A DNA stretch of 64,000 nt. Source: Parapedobacter lycopersici (GTDB lineage Bacteria; Bacteroidota; Bacteroidia; Sphingobacteriales; Sphingobacteriaceae). The stretch is taken from the NCBI RefSeq assembly GCF_024643285.1, contig NZ_JAMSLW010000002.1, forward strand, positions 372,001-436,000, read 5' to 3'. A model generated the notes under the pieces. That model ran no database searches, was not told where the DNA came from, and worked only from the letters and a program-made list of their open reading frames with translations. Positions 24,985 to 32,045 of this stretch are shown piece after piece. A program made the translations under genes and the position numbers. The stretch's first letter is position 1, and every line of letters begins with the position of its first letter.

Positions 24985-25001
24985 GTATCACACGGTTTAT
25001 C

Positions 25002-25030
25002 CAAAGTTACTAATATCCGATAGAAACCAA
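25002..25030 (-). promoter_or_regulatory. Promoter of the serine hydrolase gene (TTG-N18-TAACTTTG)
   Basis: On the minus strand TTG (25028-25030) and TAACTTTG (25002-25009) are 18 bases apart, close to the ideal spacing, leaving a short leader before the ATG at 24984. Confidence 0.6.
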
Positions 25031-25094
25031 GTCAATGAACGGCACGGCGATCAGGTATAGGAAAGGGTGAAGACTTCTGGCACATTTCTTCGGA

Positions 25095-25149
25095 GTGAGT
25101 CCATAGTGAGTCCAGGGTGAGTCCGGAATGAGTCCAGAGTGAGTCCAGT
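25095..25149. repeat. Five tandem copies of an 11-bp unit (GTGAGTCCAGA)
   Basis: Five contiguous units of 11 bp: GTGAGTCCATA, GTGAGTCCAGG, GTGAGTCCGGA, ATGAGTCCAGA, GTGAGTCCAGT. TGAGTCC is invariant in all five. Eleven bases are close to one DNA turn, so all copies face the same side of the helix. It lies about 185 bp before the DUF4407 ATG. Confidence 0.9.
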
Positions 25150-25333
25150 TTTTTACGTAAATAGCTGGACCCACCCCGGACTGCTGGCGGGTTCAGCGCG
25201 AAGCAGCTACGGCAACGTGGTAAACCTGTCTGTACCGCCGTGGGAACAGCACGTAAACCCAGCCGCTTTATGGCGGCGGATCAACGTAACAATATCGCAG
25301 CCGTGCGGTCTAACCGATCAAACCCCTGATGCG

Positions 25334-26422
25334 ATGAAACAGGTAACCCTCTTCTTCTGGTGGTGCAGCGGCGCGCACCGGGAAACGCTGGAACATTATC
25401 CCGCCGAACGGCATAAATACGTCGGTATCGGAGCCACCATATTTTTCACCGGCCTTTTTGCGGCATTATCGGGTGGATATGCCCTGTATTTCGTATTCAG
25501 TGGCAGCGGGCCTGCGGGCTTATATGCGCTGTTTTTCGGACTGCTGTGGGGGCTGGCCATTTTTAACATGGACCGCTACATCGTTGCCAGCATTAATAAA
25601 AATGCTCCGGGAGGCAAGCAGCTGCTGCAGGCTACCCCACGGATACTGCTCGCCATCCTGATTGGCATCGTCATTTCACGGCCGCTCGAACTCAAAATAT
25701 TCGATAAGGAAATCCGCCAGCAGCTGGCCACCAATTACCTGGACCAGCAACGGGCTACGCTGGATACGCTGAACCTCGCGTTTGACCGCAAATACACCCT
25801 GGAACTGGAGCGGCTGGCCGCCCTGCGCAGCGAACGGGATACGCTGGAGGCCGCCATCAAGGCCGGGCACGTGAAGCTGTACCAGGAGACGTTCGGCGAT
25901 AAAACGCCGGAGACTTCGGGAATTACCGGTTATGGACCATATGCCAAAAGACGGCAGGCCGACCTGGATAAACAGGAACAGTACCTGGACTCGTTACGCA
26001 CGCGCATCCAACACCAGGAAACATTTATCCGGGAACAAAAACAAGCGGAAGGCCTATCGGATGAGCGGCTGCTTACGGGCGCGCGACTGGACAGCGTGGT
26101 CCAGCATGCCGGCTTTGCCGATCGGAATGCGGCGTTAGGCGACCTGAAATACCGTGCCGACGGCAGCGTGAATACCGCCAATTATGCGGCGATCACCTTT
26201 ATCATGTTACTCTTTGTCTTTTTTGAGTGTCTGCCCGTGCTGGTCAAGCTGATGAGCACACGGGATGCGTATGATGTGTCGCTGCGCGACCGGCAGGCGG
26301 TGGACTTTCACCGGTCGGCAAAAAACAGGGATGCCGAAACAGCCGTTATTGACGGGGTTCACGACCTCCGGATAAAAACGGAGATCGAAAAGCAGGCACG
26401 GGTACTGTTGGATACGGATTGA
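25334..26422 (+). CDS. DUF4407 membrane protein with coiled coil
   Basis: 362 residues, starting 'MKQVTLFFWWCSGAHRETLE', the typical DUF4407 start. Three N-terminal membrane segments (about 29-50, 60-79 and 98-116) are followed by a long, charged, coiled-coil region (about 125-265, rich in Glu, Arg and Gln), then a fourth membrane segment ('AITFIMLLFVFFECLPVLV'). The function of the family is unknown. The frame is open upstream to a GTG inside the 11-bp repeat (25139), but those 65 codons do not resemble the family and are rejected. Confidence 0.85.
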   Translation: MKQVTLFFWWCSGAHRETLEHYPAERHKYVGIGATIFFTGLFAALSGGYALYFVFSGSGPAGLYALFFGLLWGLAIFNMDRYIVASINKNAPGGKQLLQATPRILLAILIGIVISRPLELKIFDKEIRQQLATNYLDQQRATLDTLNLAFDRKYTLELERLAALRSERDTLEAAIKAGHVKLYQETFGDKTPETSGITGYGPYAKRRQADLDKQEQYLDSLRTRIQHQETFIREQKQAEGLSDERLLTGARLDSVVQHAGFADRNAALGDLKYRADGSVNTANYAAITFIMLLFVFFECLPVLVKLMSTRDAYDVSLRDRQAVDFHRSAKNRDAETAVIDGVHDLRIKTEIEKQARVLLDTD

Positions 26423-26432
26423 ATTTTGCCGG

Positions 26433-27485
26433 TTATCCCAGCGGCTGATACCGCTCGACCCGGAGGTTAACACGCATGCCGGTCCGGTACGTACCGATGT
26501 CCCGGTGTATTGCCTGAAGCGTCACGCCATTCCGGCCGAGCGTCAGCTCCTCGTAAAACCCTTTGAAGCGCACTTCCAGCAGTTCAAACGCTCCGGCGGG
26601 GTCGGGAGCCGGGATGAGCCACTCCGGATGGATGGCCACCGACGTTCCGGTACGGATGTCCAGCTCCAGGGCTTCGATCGGGTTCAGCACGTTGCTCCGC
26701 GCCAGCAAACGGGCGGTGTAGGCATCCGGGGGCTGTTGGTAAAGTGTTAATGGGTTGCCCGCCGCCACCAGTCGCCCGCCACGCAGGATGATCAACTCAT
26801 CGGCCATGGAAAGTACTTCGGCCGGATCGTGTGACACCAGGATCACCGTAAGGCCGGTATCTGCCACAATGGAACGGATATCGCGTTGCAGGGAGTCCCG
26901 GAAGGAGGCGTCCACCTGGTTGAACGGCTCGTCCATCAGCAATACTTCCGGCTCATTAACCAGTGCCCGGGCGATAGCCACCCGCTGCTTTTCTCCGCCA
27001 CTGAGGTCGGCAACGCGCTGTTTATCCAGGTGCGCGATGCGCAGCTGCCGTAAAATACGTTCGGTTTTTGCCTGTTTTGCGTCCAGATCCGTATTCGGCA
27101 GCTGTGAGGCGATATTGTCCCACACATTGGCATAGGTATTCAGGTCGTCAAAGCCCTGCGAGACCATCCGCATGGCCTCATGCCCGGGAATCAGCTTTTC
27201 CTGCGGGCCGGGCACTTTCCTTCCCCGGTAGCGGATTTCGCCCTCCTGAAGTTCCAAGAGGCCATAAATCAGTCGCAGCAAGGTACTCTTTCCGCTCCCG
27301 CTTTCACCAACAATTGCCGTAATTTTCCCCTCCCCGATTTGAAAAGACAGTCCGCTTACCGCAATAACCGGTTGTTTACCCGAAAACGAGCGGCCGACGT
27401 TTTCACCATGGATGAAAGCCAGGCCTTCGCGCGGCACATCAGCAGGAAGGGAACAGGAAGGGGAATTTGTAGCGGGTACAGCCAT
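26433..27485 (-). CDS. ABC transporter ATP-binding protein with TOBE-like C-terminus
   Basis: About 350 residues. Walker A GESGSGKST is at 60-68, the signature is 'LSGGEKQR', Walker B 'EVLLMDEPFNQVD' and the switch His in 'VILVSHDPAEVL'. The region after about 265 resembles a TOBE domain, as in the sugar, polyamine or Fe3+ uptake ATPases of the CysA/PotA group. No permease or binding-protein gene is nearby, so its partner is unknown. The start at ATG 27485 directly abuts the T-run of a terminator; the frame stays open to 27584. Confidence 0.85.
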   Translation of the reverse strand: MAVPATNSPSCSLPADVPREGLAFIHGENVGRSFSGKQPVIAVSGLSFQIGEGKITAIVGESGSGKSTLLRLIYGLLELQEGEIRYRGRKVPGPQEKLIPGHEAMRMVSQGFDDLNTYANVWDNIASQLPNTDLDAKQAKTERILRQLRIAHLDKQRVADLSGGEKQRVAIARALVNEPEVLLMDEPFNQVDASFRDSLQRDIRSIVADTGLTVILVSHDPAEVLSMADELIILRGGRLVAAGNPLTLYQQPPDAYTARLLARSNVLNPIEALELDIRTGTSVAIHPEWLIPAPDPAGAFELLEVRFKGFYEELTLGRNGVTLQAIHRDIGTYRTGMRVNLRVERYQPLG

Positions 27486-27517
27486 AAAAAAGCCGCCCCG
27501 GCAGGTACCGGGACGGC
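27486..27517 (-). terminator. Intrinsic terminator of the sigma/anti-sigma/barrel operon
   Basis: On the minus strand GCCGTCCCGG, loop TACCTG and CCGGGGCGGC form a 10-bp stem with one G-U pair, followed by six T. It lies about 70 bases after the beta-barrel gene and ends exactly at the ATG of the next gene (27485). Confidence 0.8.
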
Positions 27518-27518
27518 A

Positions 27519-27526
27519 CAAAATTA
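27519..27526 (-). promoter_or_regulatory. -7 box TAATTTTG of the orphan ABC ATPase gene
   Basis: TAATTTTG with TGG 19 bases upstream fits the consensus well. It ends 2 bases before the terminator stem, so transcription from it would begin within the first stem arm. Confidence 0.5.
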
Positions 27527-27586
27527 CGAAAAATGTACCGGATTGCCAGCGACGGTAATTATCAGTCCCTGCCGGCGGGCGCATTG

Positions 27587-28483
27587 TCAGAACCCAAACA
27601 TCAACCCGAATGCGAAATTGCGCAGCCCTTCCTGCTGCGGACTGTTTTCAAAGCTATCGTTAATGTAATACTTGGCATAGATGCCGAAAGGGCCTACGCC
27701 AACCCGGGCAAATGCGCCGTAGCGGAATTGCGCTAAGTTATAGTCATCCTTAAATTTTTGCTTTCCAAATTCGTCACTTTTAAAGCGTTGGGTGCCCTTC
27801 AGCAGGAAACCGCCCTCTGGTCCGACAGCAAATTTCAGTCGGCCCAACCCGTCATAATGACGGCTGCGCCACTCGAACGTGAGCGGCAGCCGGAGGTAGG
27901 TGGCTGTCAGCCGGTTCTTCGTATAATTGATTTCGTTACGGTCGACGATATCCCAGGCCAGCGGGGTGGTGTTTTCCCGCAGATCGATGTTCTCACGGAA
28001 CCGGATATAGGTCCAGTCAAATCCACCGGATAAAAAGATACGGAAGTGGTCGTTGAAGCGGTAACCCACCTGCAACAGGTCGAACCCGAAATTAACCGTC
28101 TTTCCGGGCCGGTACCGGAAGTCCCGGTTATTATCGGACAACGTAAAGCTTCCGTTATCCACTAACCTGACCAGCCCGAGATCAATCCGCGACAGGGTAA
28201 TACCATAAATGGGGCGCGCGTTCCGGGTATCATGAGCTGTTTCCTCCGGTTCATCCGTCTGGAGCCGATATGTCTTTTCCTCGCTTCCAACACGGATTAT
28301 GCCTTCGTCTTCACCGGGAACCAGAATCCGTACCTTGCGTTTCTCTCCGGTATCCACGTCTTCCACAATGACCGTATCGGCCGAAATCGCACGCTGGCGC
28401 TGGCGCTCTGCACGCTGGCCTTCCTGGGCAACGGATGCCAGGGCGATGGTGCATAAAAATAATGTAAGGCTGGTGTATTTCAT
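27587..28483 (-). CDS. Outer-membrane beta-barrel protein
   Basis: 298 residues with a signal peptide (ending ASVAQ, about 19). After a charged N-terminal part (about 20-90), alternating beta-strands ('VNFGFDLLQVGYRFNDHFRI', 'YLRLPLTFEWRSRH', 'GPFGIYAKYYIND') lead to a terminal Phe ('LMFGF'), as in outer-membrane proteins inserted by BamA. The specific function is unknown. It is the third gene of a sigma / anti-sigma / barrel unit, which suggests its expression depends on that sigma factor. Confidence 0.75.
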   Translation of the reverse strand: MKYTSLTLFLCTIALASVAQEGQRAERQRQRAISADTVIVEDVDTGEKRKVRILVPGEDEGIIRVGSEEKTYRLQTDEPEETAHDTRNARPIYGITLSRIDLGLVRLVDNGSFTLSDNNRDFRYRPGKTVNFGFDLLQVGYRFNDHFRIFLSGGFDWTYIRFRENIDLRENTTPLAWDIVDRNEINYTKNRLTATYLRLPLTFEWRSRHYDGLGRLKFAVGPEGGFLLKGTQRFKSDEFGKQKFKDDYNLAQFRYGAFARVGVGPFGIYAKYYINDSFENSPQQEGLRNFAFGLMFGF

Positions 28484-28505
28484 GTCTGACTGATTTAGTA
28501 ACGTA

Positions 28506-29267
28506 TTATTTCCTGCTTCGGTTTCGTGCCAGGTTAAATTCGATTTTTATGGAGCCTTCGCTATCGCTGGAAAAGAGCACCGCTTTTTCTTCCCGTCGGT
28601 CTACCGTTCCCACTACGAAATTCAGCAGCTGGCTTACGCCGAACGGATTGGAGCGCGGTGCGGATGCCAGCATTTCCGCTGCCGTGTCGTCCAGCACCAC
28701 CGGGGGCTGCAGGTCGGGCACTTCGGCAATGTCCGATCCGGAACTACCCGTCTCCGGAGTGGCACGGAGCGATGGCGGGGTTGCGGCGGGTGGTAGCTGC
28801 ACGGCTGGTGTTTGTTTTACGGCCGGTTCGGAAGGGAGCACTTCCTGTATCGGTGCGGTTGCCGCCGGTATTGGCTCCGACCGTACTTTTCGCGGTAATG
28901 CCCGTGCTGTCCGGGTACGTCCGGGCATTACCGATGCAGTTTCCCCGGCCGGACGGCTGGCCGCGACGGGACCGGCGGGCTGTGCATGCGTTTCCGCCAT
29001 TGGTGCCGCTGTTTTCCCCTGCAGGTAAATAACCGGTACCGGACGGCTGGCCCAGTAGGACAGCACGCCCACCAGCAGCACTGCGGCGGCGGCCCACCGC
29101 CAGGCAACGGACACGGTACGGCGCCGGACAGGCATCGCAGCCTCATCCGGCGTTTTACGCGCCAGGCCGGCCTCAATCTTATCCCACAGGCCGGCAGAGA
29201 CGTCCGGGGTAAAATTTTTCATCTTATCCCGGATATGGCGATCAAATGGATTATCATCTGGATTCAT
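28506..29267 (-). CDS. Probable anti-sigma factor, single-pass membrane protein
   Basis: 253 residues. The N-terminal cytoplasmic part 'MNPDDNPFDRHIRDKMKNF' with 'VSAGLWDKIEAGLARK' is typical of Bacteroidota proteins encoded next to ECF sigma genes. One membrane segment is at about 54-70 ('AAAAVLLVGVLSYWA'), followed by a Pro/Ala/Thr-rich periplasmic region. The role is inferred from topology and from the overlap with the sigma gene (14 bp). No zinc-binding HxxxCxxC motif is seen. Confidence 0.7.
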   Translation of the reverse strand: MNPDDNPFDRHIRDKMKNFTPDVSAGLWDKIEAGLARKTPDEAAMPVRRRTVSVAWRWAAAAVLLVGVLSYWASRPVPVIYLQGKTAAPMAETHAQPAGPVAASRPAGETASVMPGRTRTARALPRKVRSEPIPAATAPIQEVLPSEPAVKQTPAVQLPPAATPPSLRATPETGSSGSDIAEVPDLQPPVVLDDTAAEMLASAPRSNPFGVSQLLNFVVGTVDRREEKAVLFSSDSEGSIKIEFNLARNRSRK

Positions 29268-29805
29268 ATGCTTTTATTTGCTTGATTCGTTCTTTAAGCC
29301 AGTTTCTGGCCCTTGATAACTGCGATTTGGACGCCCCCTCGCTGATCTCCAGCAGTTCGGCAATCTCCTTATGCGAATATCCCTCAATGGCATACAGGTT
29401 AAATACGGCCCGGTAGCCATCCGGTAACAGCCGGATCATAGCCAGCAGGTCTTCACATGCCAGTGCATCGATCACCGCTGCTTCCTGCGGCGCGTCCGTT
29501 ACCTCCGACAGCTCCATCACCTGCACAGACCGGCCGTTTTTCCGGTACGTTTCAATTGCGGTGTTAATCATTACCCGGCGGATCCAACCTTCAAATGACC
29601 CCTCACCGCGAAAGCTCTCAATCTGGGTAAACACCTTAATAAACCCGGCCTGCAGCACATCTTCGGCCTCGGCAGTGGTTCTCACGTAACGCATACACAC
29701 ACCCAGCATGCCGGAGGCCAACTTGCGATACAGCATTTCCTGGGCTCGGGGGTCGTTTGCTTTACAACCTTCATACAAATGATCTAATGCAACGGTTTGC
29801 TCCAA
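29254..29805 (-). CDS. ECF-type RNA polymerase sigma-70 factor
   Basis: A 183-residue extracytoplasmic-function sigma factor. Region 2 runs over about 18-87 ('RYVRTTAEAEDVLQAGFIKVF', 'FEGWIRRVMINTAIETYRK'). Region 4 covers about 118-172 ('LPDGYRAVFNLYAIEGYSHK' and 'IAELLEISEGASKSQLSRAR'). The start is TTG 29805. The promoter before it (AACCTTTT ... CATCTTA) looks like an ECF-type element, so the factor probably drives its own gene. The downstream genes encode the likely anti-sigma factor and a beta-barrel. Confidence 0.93.
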   Translation of the reverse strand: MEQTVALDHLYEGCKANDPRAQEMLYRKLASGMLGVCMRYVRTTAEAEDVLQAGFIKVFTQIESFRGEGSFEGWIRRVMINTAIETYRKNGRSVQVMELSEVTDAPQEAAVIDALACEDLLAMIRLLPDGYRAVFNLYAIEGYSHKEIAELLEISEGASKSQLSRARNWLKERIKQIKAYESR

Positions 29806-29823
29806 TGCTGATGTGTTTATTGC

Positions 29824-29850
29824 TAAGATGCAATTAATTGGGAAAAGGTT
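29824..29850 (-). promoter_or_regulatory. ECF-type promoter before the sigma gene (AAC-N17-CATCTTA)
   Basis: On the minus strand AACCTTTT (29843-29850) and CATCTTA (29824-29830), with 17 bases between AAC and CATC. It does not match TAnnTTTG. The -35-like octamer AACCTTTT is identical to that at 63868-63875 before the terminal lipoprotein gene. Confidence 0.5.
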
Positions 29851-29917
29851 GCATGGAAAGGATATTTTTTAGGCCCGGGCCGCCGCCAGTGGGTCGGTAT
29901 GGGCTGGGCCGGGTAGT

Positions 29918-30334
29918 TTAACCCAGGGAAACCGTGCAGGTACGTTTGCCATCCGCGTCCGCATCAATCCGCACAGAAACGGCATCGGGCGGCAACAGGC
30001 CAGCTATTTTTTCGGGCCACTCTACAAAACAATAGTTGCCGGAATAAAAATACTCCTCGTAGCCCAGATCGAATGCCTCTTGTTCGGATTTTATGCGGTA
30101 AAAATCAAAGTGGTAAACCGGCCCGCGGGGGGTTGTGTATTCATTGACAATGGAGAAGGTAGGACTTGCCGTGGCGTCGGTTACCCCCAGCTGTCCGCAA
30201 ATGGCTTTAATCAAGGTCGTTTTACCTGTGCCCATCGGACCGTAGAATAGCAATACACGCCGCGTACCGGCTGCGTCCAGCAGCTTCGCAGCCGCATCGG
30301 AAAGGGCGCCCAAATGCGCGATTTCGATAACCAT
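29918..30334 (-). CDS. tsaE: tRNA threonylcarbamoyladenosine biosynthesis ATPase TsaE
   Basis: A 138-residue P-loop ATPase needed with TsaB and TsaD for t6A37 modification of tRNAs that read ANN codons. Walker A is GPMGTGKTT (about 32-40); 'ATASPTFSIVNEY' and 'VYHFDFYRIKSEQEAFDLGY' are the conserved switch and substrate regions, and 'CFVEWPEKIAGLLP' is typical near the end. It starts 21 bp after the porX stop, so it probably shares a transcript with porX. Confidence 0.96.
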   Translation of the reverse strand: MVIEIAHLGALSDAAAKLLDAAGTRRVLLFYGPMGTGKTTLIKAICGQLGVTDATASPTFSIVNEYTTPRGPVYHFDFYRIKSEQEAFDLGYEEYFYSGNYCFVEWPEKIAGLLPPDAVSVRIDADADGKRTCTVSLG

Positions 30335-30355
30335 GCGACAAAAATACGGTTTTTG

Positions 30356-31909
30356 CTATTTGGTGGTGTACGTAATGTAGGGAATTATGACCTCTTCGAG
30401 CGATATGCCGCCGTGCTGGAATGTCTCATTGAAATAATTGACAAAATGGTTGTAATTATTCGGGTAGACAAAATAGGTATCCTCTTTTGCAAAAATGAAG
30501 CTGGAGCTTACGTGCAGTTTAGGCAGCATGGCGTCATGCGGATTCTTGATGTGGAAGACATCCTTAGCAATATAATTCAGGTTTTTCCCCTGTTTATAAC
30601 GCAGGTTGGTGTTGGTGTTCCGGTCGCCGATTACCTTGCTGGCATGCTTGACCCGGATGGTGCCGTGATCCGTGGTAATGATGACCCGAACCTGTTTCTG
30701 TGACAGCCATTTCAGGGCATCCAGCAAAGGTGAATGCTCAAACCACGACAGGGTCAGTGAACGATAGGCTGCTTCATCATTGGCTAATTCGCGGATCATG
30801 GCCATGTCCGTGCGGGCATGCGAAAGCATATCCACGAAATTATACACCAGCACATTCAGATCATTTCCCATCAGGTTGCTCAGGTTTTCGGCGAGGTCGC
30901 GCCCCTGATCAAGCGTAAGTATCTTATGGTACGCGTGCTTGCACTCCCTGCGGTACAGCCGTTTAATCTGATCGGCCAGAAACTTATCCTCATGCAGGTT
31001 TTTGCCTCCCTCATCCTCATCATTCTGCCAGAGGTCCGGAAACCGCTTTTCCATCTCCAGCGGCATCAATCCGCTGAATATGGCATTACGGGCATACTGG
31101 GTAGCCGTTGGCAGGATGCTGTAATAGCTATCCTCTTCTTCCAGACGGAAATAATTGGTGATGACTTCGTTAATCACCCGCCATTGATCATACCGCAGGT
31201 TGTCTATCAGGAAAAAGAACGTGGGCCTATCCTCCTGAAGACCCGGAAAGACCTTTTTACGGAACAGCTGATCCGACATGACCGGACCGTTTTCGGGTGA
31301 TGCAATCCACCGGAGGTAGTTCTTTTCCATAAACTTGGAAAACTGCATGTTGGCCTCTGCTTTTTGCAGCGTAAGTACTTCATGCATCCCTGCGTCTTCC
31401 AGTTTTTCCAGGGAAAGCTCCCAGTAAACCAATTTTTTATATACGTCTTCCCATTGCCGGAAATCCAGGTTGTCATTGAGGATCATGCCCAGGTTACGGA
31501 AATCCTGCTGGTAGGCCATGGAGGTTTTTTCGCTCACCAGCCGTTTGTTTTCCGTCAGTTTCTTGATAGTAAGCAGGATCTGCTTCGGGTTTACCGGCTT
31601 AATCAGGTAATCATCTATCTTAAACCCGATCGCCTCCTCCATCAGGTGTTCTTCCTCATTTTTAGTAACCAGTACCATGGGTACGGCCGGATTGATGTTC
31701 TTCAGCTCAAACAGCGTTTCCAGGCCGGTGAGGCCGGGCATGTTCTCATCCAGGAAAACCAGGTCGTAAAACCCCTTTTTGAATGCGTCTACGGCATCGT
31801 TTCCGTTCGTTACGGTTTTCACGCTGTAGCCTTTTTCATTGAGCAGCATGATGTGCGGCTTCAACAAATCAATCTCATCATCTGCCCAGAGTATATTCGT
31901 TTCCTGCAT
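30356..31909 (-). CDS. porX: Response regulator with PglZ phosphodiesterase domain, PorX (T9SS regulator)
   Basis: 517 residues. The receiver domain (about 1-120) has the acidic pair 'WADDE' and phosphoacceptor Asp54 in 'LVFLDENMPG'. A helical linker is followed by a PglZ/alkaline-phosphatase-like domain (about 200-517) with 'FFFLIDNLRYDQW', 'NFVDMLSHARTDM' and 'VIITTDHGTIRV', which carry the likely zinc ligands. In Porphyromonas and Flavobacterium PorX controls type IX secretion together with PorY. Its partner kinase is not in the window. An inverted repeat lies 39 bp upstream. Confidence 0.95.
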   Translation of the reverse strand: MQETNILWADDEIDLLKPHIMLLNEKGYSVKTVTNGNDAVDAFKKGFYDLVFLDENMPGLTGLETLFELKNINPAVPMVLVTKNEEEHLMEEAIGFKIDDYLIKPVNPKQILLTIKKLTENKRLVSEKTSMAYQQDFRNLGMILNDNLDFRQWEDVYKKLVYWELSLEKLEDAGMHEVLTLQKAEANMQFSKFMEKNYLRWIASPENGPVMSDQLFRKKVFPGLQEDRPTFFFLIDNLRYDQWRVINEVITNYFRLEEEDSYYSILPTATQYARNAIFSGLMPLEMEKRFPDLWQNDEDEGGKNLHEDKFLADQIKRLYRRECKHAYHKILTLDQGRDLAENLSNLMGNDLNVLVYNFVDMLSHARTDMAMIRELANDEAAYRSLTLSWFEHSPLLDALKWLSQKQVRVIITTDHGTIRVKHASKVIGDRNTNTNLRYKQGKNLNYIAKDVFHIKNPHDAMLPKLHVSSSFIFAKEDTYFVYPNNYNHFVNYFNETFQHGGISLEEVIIPYITYTTK

Positions 31910-31947
31910 CGTTTTCAGTATCCTTCGCTAATTTTTACTGTTCGTTC

Positions 31948-31968
31948 GGCAAGCAGTTACTGCTTACC
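31948..31968. promoter_or_regulatory. 21-bp inverted repeat upstream of porX
   Basis: GGCAAGCAG-TTA-CTGCTTACC: 9-bp arms with 8 of 9 matching and a 3-bp centre, 39 bases before the porX ATG in the divergent porX/HD gap. It may be a regulator-binding site or a hairpin in the porX leader. Confidence 0.45.
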
Positions 31969-32045
31969 CCTGTCTATTTTCCACGAACATAACGAAAAGT
32001 TGACTGATCCAGCGATTTTTAACATTAATTAACAGGCAGGTCTTG

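Follow-up and report, generated by a model that had tools for sequence, protein, structure and literature searches.

In E. coli pyrC and pyrD, the position of the transcription start within the first arm of an inverted repeat decides whether a hairpin forms at the 5' end of the RNA, and that hairpin, once formed, masks the ribosome site on the mRNA of the same gene. Start-site selection at pyrC is cited in a study of E. coli polymerase, according to which the start seldom strays from its usual place by more than 1 bp upstream or 2 bp downstream (PMC5730371). Primary-sigma promoters of the Bacteroidota carry a -7 box of consensus TAnnTTTG (PMC7366714, PMC9723704). Mapped transcription starts put this box at -12 to -5 in Flavobacterium psychrophilum (PMC9723704), and in F. 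johnsoniae a -33 element could not be identified (PMC7366714). We analyzed a 64,000-nucleotide stretch of the 3.6-Mb assembly of Parapedobacter lycopersici (the window) and compared one of its gene boundaries with these systems. The boundary has the G+C-rich stem, short loop, T6 run and operon-end position of an intrinsic (Rho-independent) terminator, but here the promoter of the next gene abuts the stem and its predicted start lies inside arm 1. That promoter is like a Bacteroidota primary-sigma promoter in the sequence of its box and in the distance to the inferred start, except that its initially transcribed bases would form half of the previous operon's terminator. The likeness to pyrC/pyrD switching is a 5' hairpin that depends on where within the first arm transcription starts; in contrast, the terminator described here would act on upstream transcripts, and a choice of start sites by nucleotide levels characterizes the pyrC type. 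Several other Sphingobacteriaceae (L021, L022, L026, L040, L301 and L304) have an ordinary terminator followed by a promoter, which serve the same two functions for the same genes as separate elements in the order terminator, box, ATG, and it is from this order that the interlock differs. A literature search on overlapping terminators and promoters, which covered papers available without subscription and so is no proof of novelty, found no description of such an interlock. Taken together, we consider it probable that the site is an interlocked gene boundary, in which the terminator of the upstream operon and the abutting promoter of an ABC ATPase gene share sequence and transcription from the promoter starts inside arm 1.

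The genes on both sides of the boundary lie on the minus strand. The upstream operon begins with an ECF-type sigma factor gene (29254..29805; Pfam Sigma70_r2/r4_2, TIGR02937), which is overlapped by 14 bp by a putative anti-sigma-like gene (28506..29267), and ends with an outer-membrane beta-barrel gene (27587..28483; PF13568). The putative anti-sigma-like gene had no match in Pfam; its position and sequence suggest the role, and its product has one probable membrane segment. The ABC ATPase gene that follows (26433..27485; PF00005) is a single-gene unit convergent with a DUF4407 gene on the plus strand (window 25139-26422), which ends 10 bp from the end of the ABC gene. Between the two minus-strand units we found, in the direction of transcription, the -7 promoter box TAATTTTG (consensus TAnnTTTG) at 27526-27519, a single T at 27518, a stem-loop of 11 pairs, 9 of them G-C, with a 4-base loop at 27517-27492 (arm 1, 27517-27507; arm 2, 27502-27492), a T6 run at 27491-27486 that adjoins the start codon, and the ATG of the ABC gene at 27485-27483. 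The box was assigned by its conservation in orthologs, its enrichment one base before stems and the published consensus (PMC9723704), and the two arms by folding and covariation. The first-pass annotation had described a 10-bp stem, TTTTTT directly before the ATG and a box ending 2 bases before the stem; the T-run stands as described, while the stem is better given as 10-11 bp and the spacing was found to be 1 base. The hairpin folds with -23.8 kcal/mol (z = -4.7), none of 200 shuffles was equally stable, and the stem ranked as the top terminator-like site within 25000-32000. With a stable G+C-rich stem and a T-run directly after it, the element would be the intrinsic terminator of the sigma/anti-sigma-like/barrel operon, its T-run serving as the U-tract, and the box one base upstream of the stem would be the primary-sigma promoter of the ABC gene.

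Comparison in related genomes had been proposed as a check, and it came out in favor of the element. The box, hairpin, T-run and ATG were all present in 8 of the 9 Parapedobacter genomes, with the start codon directly 3' of the T-run in the ABC orthologs, and the gap between box and stem was likewise 1 in 8 of 9. The letters T, A, TTT and G of the box were invariant in the 8 congeneric orthologs and the two nn positions varied, as is the case for a conserved -7 consensus with free nn. The stem sequences diverged (GCCGTCCCGG, GCCACCCCGG, GCTGTTCCGA and others) and partner bases co-varied, with double (compensatory) changes in 6 of 10 pairs. The covariation score of the stem was 0.404 as compared to 0.239 after shuffling (0 of 500 as high), and slid versions of the stem all scored below it (0.10-0.15). 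The same layout with quite different stems was seen in 7 of 11 Sphingobacterium loci (L034, L036, L037, L038, L041, L042 and L043), some of which have a box ending in A, and in G023 (L013) and G037 (L027); at all these loci the box overlaps or abuts the stem. A joint MAFFT alignment of Parapedobacter and Sphingobacterium (A2) misplaced the arms and was left out of the pair counts. The substitution pattern marks the hairpin as an RNA-type element whose pairing is preserved by compensatory changes. The same comparison bears on an alternative raised in the first-pass annotation, by which translation begins at an in-frame ATG further upstream (27584), so that the hairpin would be coding. The frame is indeed open in P. 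lycopersici, and in this genome only. Stops lie 39-51 nt before the ATG in L002, L008 and L009, the latter two have no usual start codon between the stop and the ATG, and the hairpin lengths of relatives differ by numbers not divisible by three. With the upstream frame of the relatives closed in this way, the coding alternative fails, and we assign it practically no probability.

To find further occurrences, we searched the P. lycopersici genome with a covariance model of the ABC element (R1). This search identified two more junctions, nuoA|nuoB and PpiD-like|DUF2480, whose families were confirmed by Pfam. The interlock was present at both junctions in 9 of 9 Parapedobacter genomes and also in many other genera, further Sphingobacteriaceae among them. 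At nuoA|nuoB the 10-bp stem was 100% paired and had double changes in 8 pairs, and at PpiD-like|DUF2480 double changes occurred in 7 of 11 pairs; alignments A6 and A7 took in hand-picked loci outside Parapedobacter. The stem is thus maintained as an RNA structure in relatives at the ABC, nuoB and DUF2480 junctions alike. A generic model with shortened loops (R2) was built from the three junctions and later found its own training junctions; it matched three places in the P. lycopersici genome and one to four in each other Parapedobacter genome, and the matches in congeners were these three junctions plus one extra match in G005. Across 119 genomes of the class, R2 detected further junctions of the same anatomy in other families of Bacteroidia, including a barrel|NAD synthase-like junction (L395) and, in two different families, a DUF1573-like|aminotransferase junction (L397 and L398), the gene names being putative and given by sequence. 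In these three loci the upstream stop codon lies 11-12 nt before the box. At nuoA|nuoB (L261, at ~27340 of contig C21 in P. lycopersici; orthologs L262-L273) we also noted a palindrome-like conserved motif, TTAGAACGTTTCTAAATAA, upstream of the box. Going by the sequence, the complex I operon may be split at this point, with a regulated promoter for nuoB.

The recurrence bears on the possibility that a repressor binds over the start site and uses the inverted repeat as its DNA operator. A position over +1 is typical of operators, and the lowest part of the stem (TGCCG) is partly conserved. The stem as a whole argues otherwise, since its sequence drifts almost freely while pairing holds, and a T-run follows the stem in the interlocked loci of all three junctions; we therefore regard an operator as very improbable. 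At the three junctions a further box between the hairpin and the ATG was found in none of 53 interlocked loci as compared to 12 of the 26 in which the terminator stands separately, a comparison in which the loci are related, so that a Fisher P overstates the evidence and is indicative only, and in which the strict box classes four Sphingobacterium loci (box ending in A) as separate. Because of this difference, the box of the interlock is most simply read as the promoter of the downstream gene.

We then asked how often a box would meet a stem in this way by chance. In 2.06 Mb across four genomes, containing 864 terminator hairpins, a strict TANNTTTG box exactly 1 base before the stem was observed 5 times against 0.61 expected per position (Poisson P ~4e-4). 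Four of the 5 cases had strong stems, namely the ABC site, its ortholog in G003, the DUF2480 junction of P. lycopersici and the nuoB junction of G003. The conjunction of box and hairpin is far from chance, and coincidence is untenable because compensatory stem changes accompany the layout in the 8 of 9 congeneric genomes that retain it. It could still be argued that a terminator and a promoter were simply packed side by side, with no selection on the relation of the start site to the stem, as the intergenic space is short and the normal order of terminator and then box is common in other species. Under simple packing one would not expect the gap to stay at 1 (or -2 to 2) across three unrelated junctions in many genera, nor boxes to be enriched at exactly gap 1, and we find this explanation unlikely. 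A generic design used at every operon was also considered and rejected, since 0.86 Mb of the P. lycopersici genome held only two strict gap-1 cases with strong stems and the generic model found three junctions.

The published position of the box at -12 to -5 (PMC9723704) places the predicted +1 on the minus strand at the G at 27514, the 5th base past the box and the 4th base of arm 1. This agrees with the proposal of the first-pass annotation that local transcripts begin inside the first arm and lack a complete stem. Since larger shifts of the start are rare in E. coli (PMC5730371), starts would be expected at 27515-27512, all within arm 1. A purine occupied the 5th base past the box in 16 of 17 ABC orthologs, and most nuoB and DUF2480 sequences had one at the 6th base, so that a candidate start purine was present 5-7 nt past the box. 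A polymerase arriving from upstream would transcribe the whole stem and stop at the T-run, while one recruited at the box would start about 5 bases past it and make an RNA without the three lowest pairs of the stem. The remnant hairpin, held three bases off the U-run, would terminate inefficiently and local transcripts would escape. When folded, full-length RNAs reached -10 to -24 kcal/mol and their stem lay directly against the U-run; predicted local RNAs lost 3 to 5 pairs, their stem ending 3-5 bases short of the U-run. Almost no stem was left in the predicted local RNAs of Sphingobacterium (-1 to -5 kcal/mol); those of Parapedobacter kept a 5- to 9-bp stem, which in P. lycopersici has 8 bp and -15.2 kcal/mol and ends three bases short of the T-run. 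Because a stem is retained in Parapedobacter, escape in this genus would rest on the lost contact with the U-run, and in P. lycopersici the 8-bp remnant, the weak point of the interlocked reading, may terminate part of the local transcripts or slow their translation. Overall, the terminator and promoter reported in the first-pass annotation are there as observed, and the interlocked interpretation is supported as far as sequence goes, every sequence-level prediction put to a test having held. If transcripts confirm it, the interlock would be a recurring gene-boundary device in Bacteroidia, in which a ~40-bp piece insulates the two operons and does not block itself, the terminator being specific for incoming transcripts because RNA from the next promoter begins within arm 1. 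Annotation would be affected here, as a terminator just before a start codon would not necessarily be an attenuator, and a compact insulator design would be on offer.

A hairpin that works for the upstream gene and a box that works for the downstream one would be expected to be lost independently, and the sequences support this. In loci that keep the interlock at the ABC junction, the barrel gene is the immediate upstream neighbor and no strong terminator other than the hairpin lies between the barrel stop codon and the start of the ABC gene. L004, with ~600 bp between the barrel and ABC genes, retains the box and has lost the hairpin; where the sigma operon is absent and tsaE lies upstream (L010 and L039), the interlock is absent. 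Many other genera have a separate terminator after the barrel gene and a box 3-10 nt before the ATG (L021, L022, L026, L040 and L053). The reverse loss was seen at PpiD-like|DUF2480, where the PpiD-like gene of L300 and L303 is still followed by the hairpin but not by a box, and where in L301, L304 and L310 the box comes after the terminator. The two parts of the element therefore evolve separably. On the other hand, L011 and L035 have the barrel gene and the box with no clear terminator, and in L005 the hairpin is present even though the end of the barrel gene is 199 nt distant, and these loci count against the pattern.

These losses also help to judge whether the hairpin is instead a 5'-leader element of the ABC mRNA, be it an attenuator, a start-site-choice switch or a stem that stabilizes the mRNA, with termination of the upstream operon incidental. 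The stem begins at a fixed distance from the box, as a leader element would, and the remnant stem predicted for local transcripts is stable in P. lycopersici. A parallel exists in the promoters of carB (carbamoyl-phosphate synthase large chain), where across Sphingobacteriaceae the box TA(C/T)CTTTG is followed at the same place by a strongly conserved hairpin, e.g. CACTCCGACAAAACAGTCGGAATATCC (L382, at ~524800 of contig C12 in P. lycopersici, L365, L372-L380 and others). In many genomes the gene upstream of carB is divergent, so a stem over the start site is possible where no upstream gene needs an end, and start-site-overlapping stems with another role do exist in this family. By analogy, the carB hairpin resembles a pyrimidine-sensing start-site switch; a search of Rfam gave no match for it. 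It has no T-run in Parapedobacter, however, unlike the hairpin of the ABC junction. At the ABC junction the distance from the barrel stop to the box is only ~20 nt in several orthologs, which leaves no room for a sensor, and we detected neither a sensor nor an anti-terminator upstream of the terminator. The letters of stem and loop lack the conservation expected of a binding site, and no Rfam family matched at or near its curated threshold, the best hit for the ABC site being a sub-threshold Burkholderia sRNA. Moreover, the hairpin is gone in L004 and L040, in which the upstream gene lies far off or is followed by a terminator of its own, and the barrel operon would otherwise be without a terminator. 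The lack of space for a sensor, together with the way the hairpin tracks the upstream gene in evolution, makes a leader attenuator unlikely, and we hold a leader function of any of these kinds to be rather improbable. In a bolder extension, the interlock would be a switch as well as a boundary, in which slight shifts of the start within arm 1, set by the initiating nucleotides, would decide whether ABC, nuoB and DUF2480 transcripts have stem enough to terminate, a doubtful proposal to which we give little weight. Its wider form, with the similarly placed carB leader hairpin as a pyrimidine-sensing relative, is just as speculative.

Apart from these junctions, four Parapedobacter genomes share a conserved intergenic stretch at about position 1500 of L244, L248, L258 and L242, consisting of GTTTTAAGATTTAAATGATTTTTTTAATTGTTAATTTGCA followed by the terminator GCCGTCCCGA, which from its sequence may be an unannotated small RNA.
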